Shown here: positions 6,774 to 10,007 of the stretch, in pieces
Layout: each line of letters opens with the position of its first letter
Position numbering within the stretch: the first letter of the stretch is position 1
Source of the DNA: Chloroflexota bacterium
GTDB taxonomy: Bacteria; Chloroflexota; Anaerolineae; Anaerolineales; Villigracilaceae
Reading direction: 5' to 3'
Assembly (NCBI GenBank): GCA_016191845.1
Contig: JACPVF010000007.1
Coordinates: 744,001-808,000, forward strand
Length of the DNA: 64,000 bases
Made by a program: the position numbers and the translations under genes
Notes under the pieces: model-generated
Databases searched by the model: none
What the model saw: only the letters and a program-made list of their open reading frames with translations
What the model was told of the DNA's origin: nothing

Positions 6774-7546
6774 TGTCCCTTCCAGACGGGCGCGCGTTTT
6801 TCGAGGAAGGCTGTCATGCCTTCCTTTTGATCCTCGCTGGCGAAGAGATTGTAGAAGACCAGACGTTCCTCCTCGAGTCCCTCCCCCAGCGGACGTTCGT
6901 AGGTTTGCAGGATCATCTGCTTGGCGGCCTGCACCGCCAGCGGAGCCCGGTCCGCGATTTGCGCGGCGAGGGACAAGGCCTCGTCGAGAAAACGTTCAGG
7001 CGGGACGACGCGGTTGACCAGTCCAAGCTGGAGCGCTTCCTGCGCCGACAGGTTGCGGTTGTTGAGGACCATCTCCATCGCGAGGACTTTCCCCACCGCA
7101 CGCGGCAGGCGCTGGGTCCCGCCTGCACCGGGCATCACCCCGATGGTCACCTCGGGCAGGCCGAAGCGAGCCGACTCGGAGGCCACGATCATGTCGCAGG
7201 ACAGGGCCAGTTCGAATCCGCCACCCAATGCCCAGCCTGAGACCGCCGCGATGACCGGCTTGCGGATCGAGCGGATACGACCGAAGATGGCGGTCGGGTC
7301 ACTGTCCATCATCTGTTGTACGGTTTTATCGGACATCTCGCGGATGTCGGCTCCCGCGGCGAACGCCCGTTGACTCCCCGCGATGACCATGGCACGGACC
7401 TGCTCATCCGCATCGAAGGCGGAGAGCGCGTCCATCAGTTCGGTCAGCAGGGCATGGTTCAGGGCGTTGAGGGCCTGTGGGCGGTTGAGGGTGAGCAGGC
7501 CCACGCGTCCGCGGGTTTCGGTCAGGATGTGGGTGTAGGTCATCAC
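6770..7546 (-). CDS. Enoyl-CoA hydratase/isomerase (crotonase) family protein
   Basis: 258 residues, the usual length. Oxyanion-hole segments are present: QRAFAAGADIREMSD near 60-75 and SGWALGGGFELALSCDMIVAS near 102-122. Glu pairs in FGLPEVTIGVMPGAGGTQRLPRAVG place it with true hydratases, which add water to trans-2-enoyl-CoA in beta-oxidation. The ribosome-binding site AAGGAG is 7 bases before the ATG. It is the first gene of a two-gene unit with the AAC(3)-like gene. Confidence 0.88.
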   Translation of the reverse strand: MMTYTHILTETRGRVGLLTLNRPQALNALNHALLTELMDALSAFDADEQVRAMVIAGSQRAFAAGADIREMSDKTVQQMMDSDPTAIFGRIRSIRKPVIAAVSGWALGGGFELALSCDMIVASESARFGLPEVTIGVMPGAGGTQRLPRAVGKVLAMEMVLNNRNLSAQEALQLGLVNRVVPPERFLDEALSLAAQIADRAPLAVQAAKQMILQTYERPLGEGLEEERLVFYNLFASEDQKEGMTAFLEKRAPVWKGQ

Positions 7547-7658
7547 GGTCTCCTTCGCTGTCGGCGAATCGGTTCCTGTGGATGATACCCCAAGACAGAG
7601 AAAAAGTATAAGTTGAAGCTCTTTTTGGCCAAGGCGGCCTGCATTATATTGCCTATGC

Positions 7659-7664
7659 TATACT
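7659..7664 (+). promoter_or_regulatory. -10 box of the toxin-antitoxin pair
   Basis: TATACT lies 6 bases before the ATG at 7671 and no ribosome-binding site is present, so the toxin mRNA probably begins at or next to its start codon. A clear -35 box is not visible. Confidence 0.55.
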
Positions 7665-7670
7665 TGTAAT

Positions 7671-7964
7671 ATGAAATTCCAGTGGGACCCAAACAAGGCT
7701 GCCATTAATCTCCGAAAACATGGTATCGGCTTTGAAGAGGCTTTGACCGTGTTTCAGGATCCACTTGCGCTCATCTTTGACGATGAAGAGCATTCAAGGG
7801 ATGAGCATCGGGAGATTATCATTGGATTTTCGACCCTCAGTAAATTATTGCTTGTCTGTTTTGTGGAAAGACAGGAAAATGTAATCCGCATTATCAGCGC
7901 AAGACAGGCCACGCGTCTGGAGAAACAAGACTATGAAGAACACCTCCGCTCCCAAAAAAAATAA
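7671..7964 (+). CDS. brnT: BrnT-family ribonuclease toxin
   Basis: 97 residues. The family pattern is clear: FQWDPNKAAINLRKHGIGFEEA at the N-terminus, FDDEEHSRDEHREIIIGFS in the middle and RIISARQATRLEKQDYEEH at the end. BrnT toxins are small RelE-fold ribonucleases neutralised by BrnA. The toxin is upstream of its antitoxin, the usual BrnT-BrnA order, and overlaps it by 32 bases in another frame. Transcription probably starts at the ATG (see the -10 box). Confidence 0.88.
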   Translation: MKFQWDPNKAAINLRKHGIGFEEALTVFQDPLALIFDDEEHSRDEHREIIIGFSTLSKLLLVCFVERQENVIRIISARQATRLEKQDYEEHLRSQKK

Positions 7965-8160
7965 AGTTGAAGAGATGGCCGCCGAATATCGCCTGGATTA
8001 CAAGAAGGCGAAGCCCAATCGGTTTGCCAAAGAGATGAAATCCAAGCCGCCGGTGGTCGTTCTTTTGGACGACGATGTGGCAAAAGTGTTCAAGACTGCG
8101 GAACAGGTGAATACGGCTTTGCGGGCCTTGATTTCTGCAATGCCGAAAAGCAAAGCCTGA
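7933..8160 (+). CDS. brnA: BrnA-like antitoxin
   Basis: 75 residues, basic N-terminal half and a C-terminal PVVVLLDDDVAKVFKTAEQVNTALRALI segment that resembles the ribbon-helix-helix part of BrnA/CopG-type antitoxins. The start overlaps the toxin gene. The call rests mostly on position behind brnT, since the protein is short and diverged. It should bind BrnT and repress the shared promoter. Confidence 0.72.
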   Translation: MKNTSAPKKNKVEEMAAEYRLDYKKAKPNRFAKEMKSKPPVVVLLDDDVAKVFKTAEQVNTALRALISAMPKSKA

Positions 8161-8187
8161 CTTAAAACACAATTTTGACATAACGAG

Positions 8188-8214
8188 CACGGCGGACCCG
8201 AAAGGTCCGCCGTG
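8188..8214. terminator. Stem-loop between convergent brnA and the FrnE-type gene
   Basis: Arms CACGGCGGACC and complement with loop CGAAA. The T-tract is weak on both sides, so efficiency is uncertain. Confidence 0.6.
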
Positions 8215-8218
8215 TGTA

Positions 8219-8833
8219 TTATCGTTTCTCTGCATCCTGTCGAATGCGTTCGATGACTTGCAGGAACACTTCGTATGGCTGTGCGCCGACCACCGCGTAG
8301 CGGTTATTCATCACATAGGTGGGAACGCCCTGTACGCCGATACGTTGCGCCTCATAAACCTGCATCCTGACCACCTCGGTGTAGGTGCCGCTTTCGACTT
8401 CCGCCTGCATCTCATCAGCGTCGAGGCCCGTTTCCTGGGCAGCCCGACGCAGGATGTCCCAATTGCTGATATCGAGGCCCTCGCCGTAGACCTTCTGGAA
8501 CACGGCATGATGGAATTCGAGCAGCTTGCCATGCTCGCGCGCGTACTCGGTGGCTTCGTGCGCGAGGCGCGTGTTGTAGATGCGCTCCGTGGACTTGAAC
8601 TTCATGCCGTTGGCGGCCGCCATCTGAGCCAGACGTTCCTCCGAGCCATTGGCACGCGCCCGCTGGATGTAATCGGGCAGGTCCATGCCTTCGGGCGGCG
8701 TGTCGGGACGCAGATAGTACGGACGCCAGTCGACCTCGACGTTGTATTCAGCTTGTAACTTTGCGACCACACCCTGGCCGACATAGCACCACGGTCAGAT
8801 GTAGTCAGAGAAGATCGTCAGTGTGTATTCCAT
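8219..8833 (-). CDS. FrnE-type DsbA-family oxidoreductase, candidate selenoprotein (UGA = Sec at codon 13)
   Basis: From the ATG at 8833 the frame reads MEYTLTIFSDYI, then TGA (8797-8795), then PWCYVGQGVVAKLQ and runs to 8219. The TGA falls exactly on the first Cys of the family's CPWC active site, giving UPWC at residues 13-16. The rest is a complete thioredoxin-fold FrnE/2-hydroxychromene-isomerase-like protein (RPYYLRPDTPPEG, IYNTRLAHEATEYA, GVQGVPTYVMNNRYAVVGAQ with the cis-Pro loop), 204 residues in total. Read without selenocysteine, the protein would begin at a GTG at 8770 and lack the redox motif and first beta strand. A SECIS-like hairpin follows at 8780-8764. A sequencing error or pseudogene is the alternative. 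Confidence 0.75.
8764..8780 (-). promoter_or_regulatory. Candidate bacterial SECIS hairpin
   Basis: On the coding strand CGGCC pairs with GGTCG (five pairs, one G-U) around the loop AGGGTGT. The loop begins 19 bases after the UGA and has G at its second position, matching the accepted bacterial SECIS layout (short stem, G among the first two loop bases, loop about 16-37 bases after UGA). It lies inside the coding region as expected for bacteria. Confidence 0.55.
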
Positions 8834-8854
8834 AGCATCCATATTATTATCGTT

Positions 8855-8955
8855 CTGAGCGGAGTGAGGCAATAGCCGAACGTAGTCGAAGGATGCGTGC
8901 ATAAATTGCCCTTCGACTGCGGGCCTCAAAGAACATTCGGCCCTCCGCTCAGGGC
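8855..8955. repeat. Copy of a dispersed palindromic repeat, two inverted halves
   Basis: The left half (GTTCTGAGCGGAGTGAGG, then CGAACGTAGTCGAAGG) and the right half (CCCTTCGACTGCGGGC, then CCCTCCGCTCAGGGC) are imperfect inverted copies. A related piece is at 4608-4627. I recall such elements as common in Chloroflexota genomes. It fills the gap between the VOC gene and the FrnE-type gene. Confidence 0.6.
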
Positions 8956-8958
8956 GGA

Positions 8959-9879
8959 TCAAACAGAGCGCAGAGAAAGCATCATGCCGTTCTGTGACGG
9001 GTCGTGGATGAGCAGTCCGTGTTCGGTCTGGTTGGCAGCGATCCCAGCCGCGTCCACGCGGGCGATGACCTCGTCCAACGCAGATTGGTTCGGCAACTCG
9101 ACGCTGAAGTAGCGCAGGCCCACGGCATCCGGCGGAGGCGGCGGAGCGCCCTCGCCCTGCCAGGTGTTCAATCCGATGTGGTGATGATAGCCACCCGCCG
9201 AGACAAAGGCCATGCGGAACTCGTCCACCACGCCCATGACGTCGAAGCCGAGCACGCCGTGATAGAAGTCAACGGCTTCGTGCAGGTCGCGGACATGCAG
9301 GTGCATGTGGCCGATGCGCGTCTCGGGCGGGACGGTCAGGTCGAGTTTGTCATCCTGTTCGAGATGTCCGAACAGGGCATCCAGGTCGAGCGGTTCGCGG
9401 CCGTCGCTCAAGCTGCCATCTGCGCGGCGGGTGACGTACTGACCGTCCTTGAGCGACCAGGTCCCATCCTCGGGCGACTCGGCATACAGCTCGATTCCGT
9501 TGCCTTCGAGGTCGTCGAGGTAGGTGGTCTTGGTCATGATGTGATCGGTGGGCGCGTTGGGATATTTCAACACGAACAGACGGGCGATGGCGCGCGCCAA
9601 TTCGCGCTGATCGGGGAACAACGTGGCAAAGTGGTAGAGCCCCGTTACGCGGCGATAACGGCGATATCCAGGCTGTTCGATCAGGCGCAGAATCTCGGTC
9701 TTCTCCGAGCCGAGCGTGGCGATATTTCCCTCGCGGTGGCGCAGCACGAAGCCGAGCGCCTGCTGGTAAAAGGCGATCTCGTTATCGAGGTTGGCTACAC
9801 TCAACGAGACATGGCCGATGCGGGTCTCGGGATGGATGGAAAAATCGGTCTGAGTTTGCGTTTGTTTTTGAGTGGACAT
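8959..9879 (-). CDS. VOC-family dioxygenase, CatE-like (glyoxalase/catechol-2,3-dioxygenase fold)
   Basis: 306 residues built from two VOC modules: TRIGHVSLSVANLDNEIAFYQ at about 20-40 and TRIGHMHLHVRDLHEAVDFYH at about 187-207. Candidate metal ligands are H191 or H193 of the second module, a His in YHHHIGLNTWQG, and a Glu in RYFSVELPNQ. The two-module layout and length match Bacillus CatE-type proteins, usually annotated as extradiol ring-cleaving dioxygenases; the substrate is unknown. It is a single gene with the dispersed repeat directly downstream. Confidence 0.8.
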   Translation of the reverse strand: MSTQKQTQTQTDFSIHPETRIGHVSLSVANLDNEIAFYQQALGFVLRHREGNIATLGSEKTEILRLIEQPGYRRYRRVTGLYHFATLFPDQRELARAIARLFVLKYPNAPTDHIMTKTTYLDDLEGNGIELYAESPEDGTWSLKDGQYVTRRADGSLSDGREPLDLDALFGHLEQDDKLDLTVPPETRIGHMHLHVRDLHEAVDFYHGVLGFDVMGVVDEFRMAFVSAGGYHHHIGLNTWQGEGAPPPPPDAVGLRYFSVELPNQSALDEVIARVDAAGIAANQTEHGLLIHDPSQNGMMLSLRSV

Positions 9880-9949
9880 TTCTAAGGCCTTTCAGGGTAC
9901 GTCATGGACAACGTGACTGGTGTGAAATTTACATTTTTTGTGTACCATC

Positions 9950-10007
9950 GTCAACCATCAAAGCGCGACATTTGTGGGATAAGCGACAGAATTCCGTTAA
10001 TGTTGTC
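9950..10007 (+). promoter_or_regulatory. Leader element shared with the tetR gene (copy A)
   Basis: From 9950 the bases GTCAACCATCAAAGCGC and the following 22 match 32 of 39 positions upstream of the TetR gene (16621-16659). In both copies ATGTTGTC follows exactly 50 bases after the first G. Here that ATG (10000) opens a three-codon frame, M-L-S-stop. GCGACA occurs twice, 18 bases apart. Function unknown; it could be a regulator site or the relic of a duplicated 5' region. Confidence 0.6.

Follow-up and report, generated by a model that had tools for sequence, protein, structure and literature searches.

The locus considered here raises the question of whether a gene with a stop codon at its active site is broken or is read through. 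The window, i.e. the whole stretch of 64,000 nucleotides that was analysed, contains on its minus strand a frame (8833-8219) with one internal stop, a TGA, and with TAA as its terminator. An ORF finder that halts at TGA displays a truncated gene: without recoding, it yields a 183-aa GTG-started remnant (8770-8219) from which the active site is missing. It is argued below that the correct reading is an intact selenoenzyme, and that the gene almost certainly encodes a cytoplasmic-type FrnE/DsbA thiol-disulfide oxidoreductase, with UGA codon 13 read as a predicted selenocysteine (Sec).

Reading frame, protein family and fold

An earlier note, made from the sequence of the window, had placed the only in-frame stop on the first Cys codon of a CPWC active site. 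Translation bears this out: there is a single TGA, the frame is otherwise open, and the TGA occupies the position of the first Cys, with PWC given by the next three codons. The frame reads MEYTLTIFSDYI, then U (TGA), then PWC, just as had been proposed, with conserved protein sequence on both flanks of the UGA, and readthrough restores a complete 204-residue DSBA protein. Frame inspection also revealed an in-frame ATG at 8842, and the true start of the gene may therefore lie three codons 5′ of 8833. The features of the locus are collected in Table 1. The source assembly comprises 4.63 Mb in 18 contigs and is 99% complete.

Table 1. Coordinates of the features at and around the Sec-FrnE locus, numbered as in the window
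Feature	Position	Strand	Description
Sec-FrnE gene	8219..8833	(-)	204 codons and a terminal TAA; one DSBA domain; UPWC at residues 13-16
In-frame TGA (codon 13)	8795..8797 (8797-8795)	(-)	First residue of UPWC; predicted selenocysteine
Alternative in-frame ATG start	8840..8842	(-)	MDAMEYT...; from frame inspection
SECIS-type hairpin in coding sequence	8762..8783	(-)	Stem 8783-8775 / 8769-8762; apical loop GGGTG 8774-8770
VOC/glyoxalase-type gene	8959..9879	(-)	Two-domain protein; directly upstream of Sec-FrnE
BrnT-type ribonuclease toxin gene	7671..8160	(+)	Pfam BrnT_toxin, 96 bits
Gene overlapping that for BrnT			75 codons; in the expected antitoxin place; no Pfam match

The DSBA-like thioredoxin domain spans the whole length of the protein (Pfam PF01323, 138 bits, residues 4-194, TGA read as Cys). 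A search of PDB sequences matched FrnE of Deinococcus radiodurans (PDB 5cp1) over residues 5-197, with an E value of 2.7e-30. An AlphaFold2 model built from an alignment of 39 sequences has a mean pLDDT of 96.3, and when it was compared with 998 aligned chains (one per entry) the best five matches were all crystal structures of D. radiodurans FrnE (Z 25.6-26.3, rmsd 2.3-2.4, 203-204 residues). The label FrnE, given in the earlier note from the letters of the sequence, is thus upheld by the PDB match and by the fold (Z 26.3); together with Pfam, these make FrnE the nearest relative and support membership of the FrnE subfamily of DsbA (cd03024). A search against NCBIfam returned five weak matches, none of them above its cut-off.

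UPWC is the CP(W/F)C motif of FrnE with Sec replacing the first Cys. Residues D10, C/U13, P14, C16 and P171 are invariant across the alignment of 39 sequences (in which Sec was written as C), P171 being held in a GVPT loop. The domain begins at residue 4 and, by inspection, no leader is visible in the Sec-FrnE sequence; FrnE has been described as a predicted cytoplasmic type of DsbA (PMC8945050), and the protein of the window may likewise be cytoplasmic.

The flanks of 17 loci were examined by eye, and no functional clue was obtained from the gene neighbourhood. Besides the VOC/glyoxalase-type gene of the window, VOC/glyoxalase-like neighbours were observed, from their first residues, at two further loci (L022, 2097-3044 (-); L023, 437-1354 (+)). 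The BrnT-type gene and the gene that overlaps it lie on the other side of Sec-FrnE (Table 1).

Homologues and the selenocysteine machinery

Homologous loci were collected and scored at codon 13. One of the six initial search peptides demanded Cys codons, and a few genomes contributed two sequences each. Of 177 loci entered, one (L196) gave no site, and seven of the remaining 176 were duplicates over their first 400 nt. The 169 unique sequences comprised 126 with TGA, 40 with TGC or TGT and 3 that had been mis-assigned (L049, L079 and L090); the ratio of 126 to 40 is not a frequency, as TGA sequences were fetched for every TGA-form genome of the phylum and family samples but G516, and stop-free sequences were fetched in part. 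It is apparent, nevertheless, that Sec and Cys exchange at the same residue. The residues around the TGA, mostly SDY-[IV]-U-P-[WF]-C, match those of the Cys homologues, and the motif is UPWC in 89 of the TGA sequences, UPFC in 32 and UPYC in 5. Two loci lie outside the 126: L196, with TGA at codon 13 and the motif USWC on hand reading, and L090 (genome G074), with TGA in UPWC and a frame that is broken later.

The earlier note had named further disabling changes in homologues as a sign against its reading. In all 126 TGA sequences the frame is open for at least 182 codons, the next stop being 182-212 codons further on; the exceptions are L090 and, among the Cys forms, L066, which has a later stop. 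L066 and L080 (cut off) are the two short sequences among the 40 Cys forms. Among the genome of the window and 60 relatives, 17 of the 61 genomes (that of the window counted) gave a fetched TGA sequence with no other stop in frame.

The TGA form is widespread. The phylum was sampled with 400 genomes, of which 126 matched at an E value of 1e-15 or better; six of these were set aside because the match misses the active site, and the TGA form was found in 69 genomes, a stop-free form that includes the active site in 54, and both in three (G134, G354 and G382). Of 152 family genomes, 72 had a match at 1e-50 or better; the TGA was present in 67 of these and absent from five. That the TGA stands at codon 13 was verified in all TGA-form genomes sampled from the phylum and in 66 of the 67 from the family. 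One genome (G380) contains two TGA forms.

The presence of selA, selB, tRNA-Sec and selD had been proposed as a check, and all four were found in the genome from which the window derives. Searches identified selA (532 bits), selB (326 bits) and selD (348 bits); tRNA-Sec scored 70.4 bits and was called by ARAGORN as tRNA-SeC with anticodon TCA. The selD gene (G000:C11:231350-232282 (-), L010) has an in-frame TGA of its own, in CAG-U-ASK, at what we take to be the known Sec/Cys site of SelD, and selenophosphate synthetase thus appears to be a selenoprotein itself. A divergent PF01323 protein (53 bits) is encoded elsewhere in the same genome (G000:C14:175998-176507 (-), L211); its one in-frame TGA likewise reads U-PWC (...WAEYYUPWCYVAAVRL...), and it is a candidate for a second DsbA-family selenoprotein.

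Across the phylum sample, selA was found in 67 of the 69 genomes with TGA-FrnE, as against 255 of the 331 other genomes (Fisher p 2e-5, kinship ignored) and 44 of the 51 genomes with only the stop-free form (p 0.036, kinship again ignored). Within the family there was no such difference for tRNA-Sec, which was found in 58 of 67 genomes with TGA-FrnE and in 68 of 80 without a FrnE match (two family genomes without tRNA-Sec are taken to be G552 and G557), and for this reason co-occurrence carries little weight. In two genomes with the TGA form, G038 (640 contigs) and G267 (1040 contigs), neither selA nor tRNA-Sec was found, probably because the bins are incomplete. In G149 tRNA-Sec was found and selA was not; in G002 the reverse was observed.

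The downstream hairpin and alternative readings of the TGA

Bacterial insertion of Sec would call for a SECIS element, and the earlier note had described a hairpin with G in its loop, the loop being placed 19 bases after the UGA. The hairpin is real, with its stem within 8783-8762, but the distance was slightly misjudged: the hairpin begins 11 nt after the UGA and its 5-nt loop begins after 20 nt. Considered alone, it is not significant (-9.2 kcal/mol versus -7.5 kcal/mol for synonymous shuffles, with 27% of 100 shuffles as low), and the case for a SECIS element therefore rests on comparison. A search of positions 7500-10000 against Rfam gave four matches, all well below gathering scores and none to a SECIS family.

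Comparison of silent sites provides that evidence. In 65 close TGA sequences, codons 5-10 after the TGA (VGQGVV) are nearly frozen as GTC GGC CAG GGT GTG GTC. Third-position entropy is 0.21 bits at the five fourfold codons of the hairpin versus 1.48 bits at 46 others, and the ranges do not overlap (hairpin maximum 0.58, outside minimum 0.77; Mann-Whitney p 1.4e-4). The seven close Cys sequences approximately retain the residues VGQGVV, with codons that are mostly different (GTG or GTT, GGT or GGG, etc.). Their stem cells are paired in 31 of 49 cases, those of the 65 close Sec sequences in 446 of 455.

The same pattern was obtained with the complete set. When the same seven columns were scored with no choice of register, 783 of 882 cells pair in the 126 Sec sequences versus 170 of 280 in the 40 Cys sequences. 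The best hairpin with G starting the loop averages -10.35 kcal/mol in the 126 Sec sequences versus -5.68 kcal/mol in their synonymous shuffles; for 39 Cys sequences the corresponding averages are -5.10 and -4.61 kcal/mol. Individually, 64 of the 126 Sec sequences reach p ≤ 0.05, as does 1 of the 39 Cys sequences, and 62 Sec sequences miss that threshold. The distance from the TGA to the start of the loop is 20 nt in 77 Sec sequences and 19-22 nt in 112 of the 126. In 107 in-register Sec sequences, which were chosen by the hairpin search itself and are biased towards pairing, 722 of 749 cells of the seven stem pairs are paired; sliding the register by 1 to 3 lowers the share to 19-47%.

Stem and loop sequences vary between clades (within the family, for instance, the loop reads GGGTG; other clades have GGTCG, GGTCA or GGTCT), and the position and shape of the hairpin are constant. 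CG, TA, AT and TG are all seen at pairs 18:26 and 19:25 (GT as well at 18:26), so that both sides have changed. Selection acts, then, on the hairpin, and the loss of pairing where Cys replaces the TGA ties it to the UGA. Judged from this pattern of conservation, and not from the stability of any single sequence, the hairpin shows the features that mark a SECIS element in bacteria.

These comparisons bear directly on other explanations of the TGA. It could be a true stop that serves as a switch, such that a 12-residue peptide and a remnant from GTG 8770 are produced and the hairpin is regulatory in some other way; the UGA is indeed near the start, and the 183-aa GTG-started ORF exists. That remnant, however, would lack the active site, the residues straddling the TGA are the same as in the Cys homologues, and the pairing of the hairpin decays in the Cys forms, all of which make a switch very unlikely. 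Still less probable is a pseudogene, or an assembly or base-call error, in which the TGA would be chance nonsense or a misread in a Cys gene. A single base separates TGA from TGC or TGT, and the source is an 18-contig assembly, but the TGA adjoins a hairpin conserved at silent sites and recurs in 126 unique sequences, nearly all of them from separate genomes and none with another stop within the following 182 codons; its recurrence in so many separately assembled genomes renders a base-call error very unlikely. Genome-wide reassignment of TGA to Trp, Gly or Cys, which would account for a well-tolerated in-frame TGA in this gene, is the least probable of the three: TGA serves as an ordinary terminator, ending 16 of the 41 non-overlapping window ORFs that reach 200 aa or more, swaps with Cys codons in the sequences scored at codon 13, and is accompanied by a full Sec system in the genome.

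Proposed mechanism, history and relation to known systems

If UGA is read as Sec, the following mechanism may be envisaged. SelB carrying Sec-tRNA(Sec) would bind the G-containing loop of the hairpin and deliver Sec in place of termination. Sec13 would be the attacking residue of U-P-W-C, directed at a substrate disulfide; the mixed selenenylsulfide would be resolved by Cys16, leaving an Se-S bond to be re-reduced by an outside reductant. A C-terminal CX4C pair was found in none of the 126 Sec sequences and in 2 of 38 Cys sequences, and 102 of the 126 Sec sequences contain no Cys after the UPWC-type motif, from which it follows that the Se-S bond would have to be reopened from outside. By analogy, the enzyme would act on disulfides as a reductase or isomerase and not as an oxidase, and the Sec version would be expected to be highly reactive, as the earlier note had supposed.

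The distribution of Sec and Cys forms has a bearing on their history. A tree (quick, unrooted and with long-branch warnings) contains 18 changes of label in all, at least 12 of them forced by starred branches. One starred set of 64 sequences consists of 59 Sec and 5 Cys forms, and a direction from Sec to Cys is only suggested by this set. Four of the five stop-free family genomes retain tRNA-Sec and selA, and replacement by Cys was therefore not forced in these by loss of the machinery. The Cys forms L052, L078, L087 and L168 (G517, G532, G318 and G542, respectively) come from sister genomes that keep selA and tRNA-Sec; in the genomes of Cys forms L054 and L055 neither was found. It is conceivable, although we lean somewhat against so broad a scenario, that Sec is the usual state of a Chloroflexota FrnE clade, that Cys has been derived repeatedly with subsequent silent-site decay of the SECIS element even where Sec is still made, and that Sec, in proteins without CX4C, may take over the role of that pair in turnover.

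Sister genomes that carry the one enzyme in matched Sec and Cys versions constitute a natural experiment on the benefit of selenium to a disulfide reductase. The same pairs also allow one to ask how rapidly a SECIS element decays once it is no longer needed.

Among known proteins, SCO1869, a putative DsbA oxidoreductase of Streptomyces coelicolor (PDB 3gl5), resembles the model with a Z of 24.7 over 203 residues and 29% identity; the title of its PDB entry does not call it a selenoprotein. D. radiodurans FrnE (DR_0659; PDB 5cnw, 5coh and 5cp1) is like Sec-FrnE in fold (Z 26.3, rmsd 2.4, 204 residues aligned, 31% identity), but has Cys in its CP(W/F)C motif where the window protein has Sec. It also has a C-terminal CX4C proposed for regeneration, which is absent from the window protein; CX4C does not define the FrnE subfamily, members without it being known (PMC8945050). 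The Rcas_1661 family of thioredoxin-like (seleno)lipoproteins (NF041057), an established (seleno)protein family, matches weakly: its score of 45 bits is far below the cut-off of 190 and covers residues 90-196 only, i.e. the C-terminal half, which marks it as a different family.

The group COG2761 is presumably that of FrnE. The statement in the earlier note that FrnE/DsbA-like selenoproteins had been predicted in other bacteria agrees with the literature: in the Sargasso Sea selenoproteome (PMC1088965; 2005), nine DsbA-like COG2761 sequences with UXXC are described as a new selenoprotein family. DsbA 1/2 is reported from GOS (PMC2398784), and later surveys list DsbA 1, 2 and 3 in marine metagenomes. 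One later survey table gives a DsbA-like family the figures 41 and 45, in columns taken to be organisms and genes, and a review equates 'DsbA-like form 1' with PF01323 and UxxC (PMC13188914). In a few searches of the open-licence selenoprotein literature, no title or opening of an abstract concerned the Chloroflexota Sec-FrnE gene, nor do the passages cited here mention it.

Sec-FrnE is not, of course, a new kind of selenoprotein, since DsbA-like (COG2761) UxxC proteins had already been described. The present results extend DsbA-like selenoproteins across many Chloroflexota (69 of 400 genomes in the phylum sample; in the family, 67 of 152). Compared by their published description, the COG2761 selenoproteins share with Sec-FrnE the PF01323 domain, Sec as the first residue of UxxC, and a SECIS element with G in a small apical loop; the carriers identified here are Chloroflexota from the same family, order and phylum as the genome of the window.
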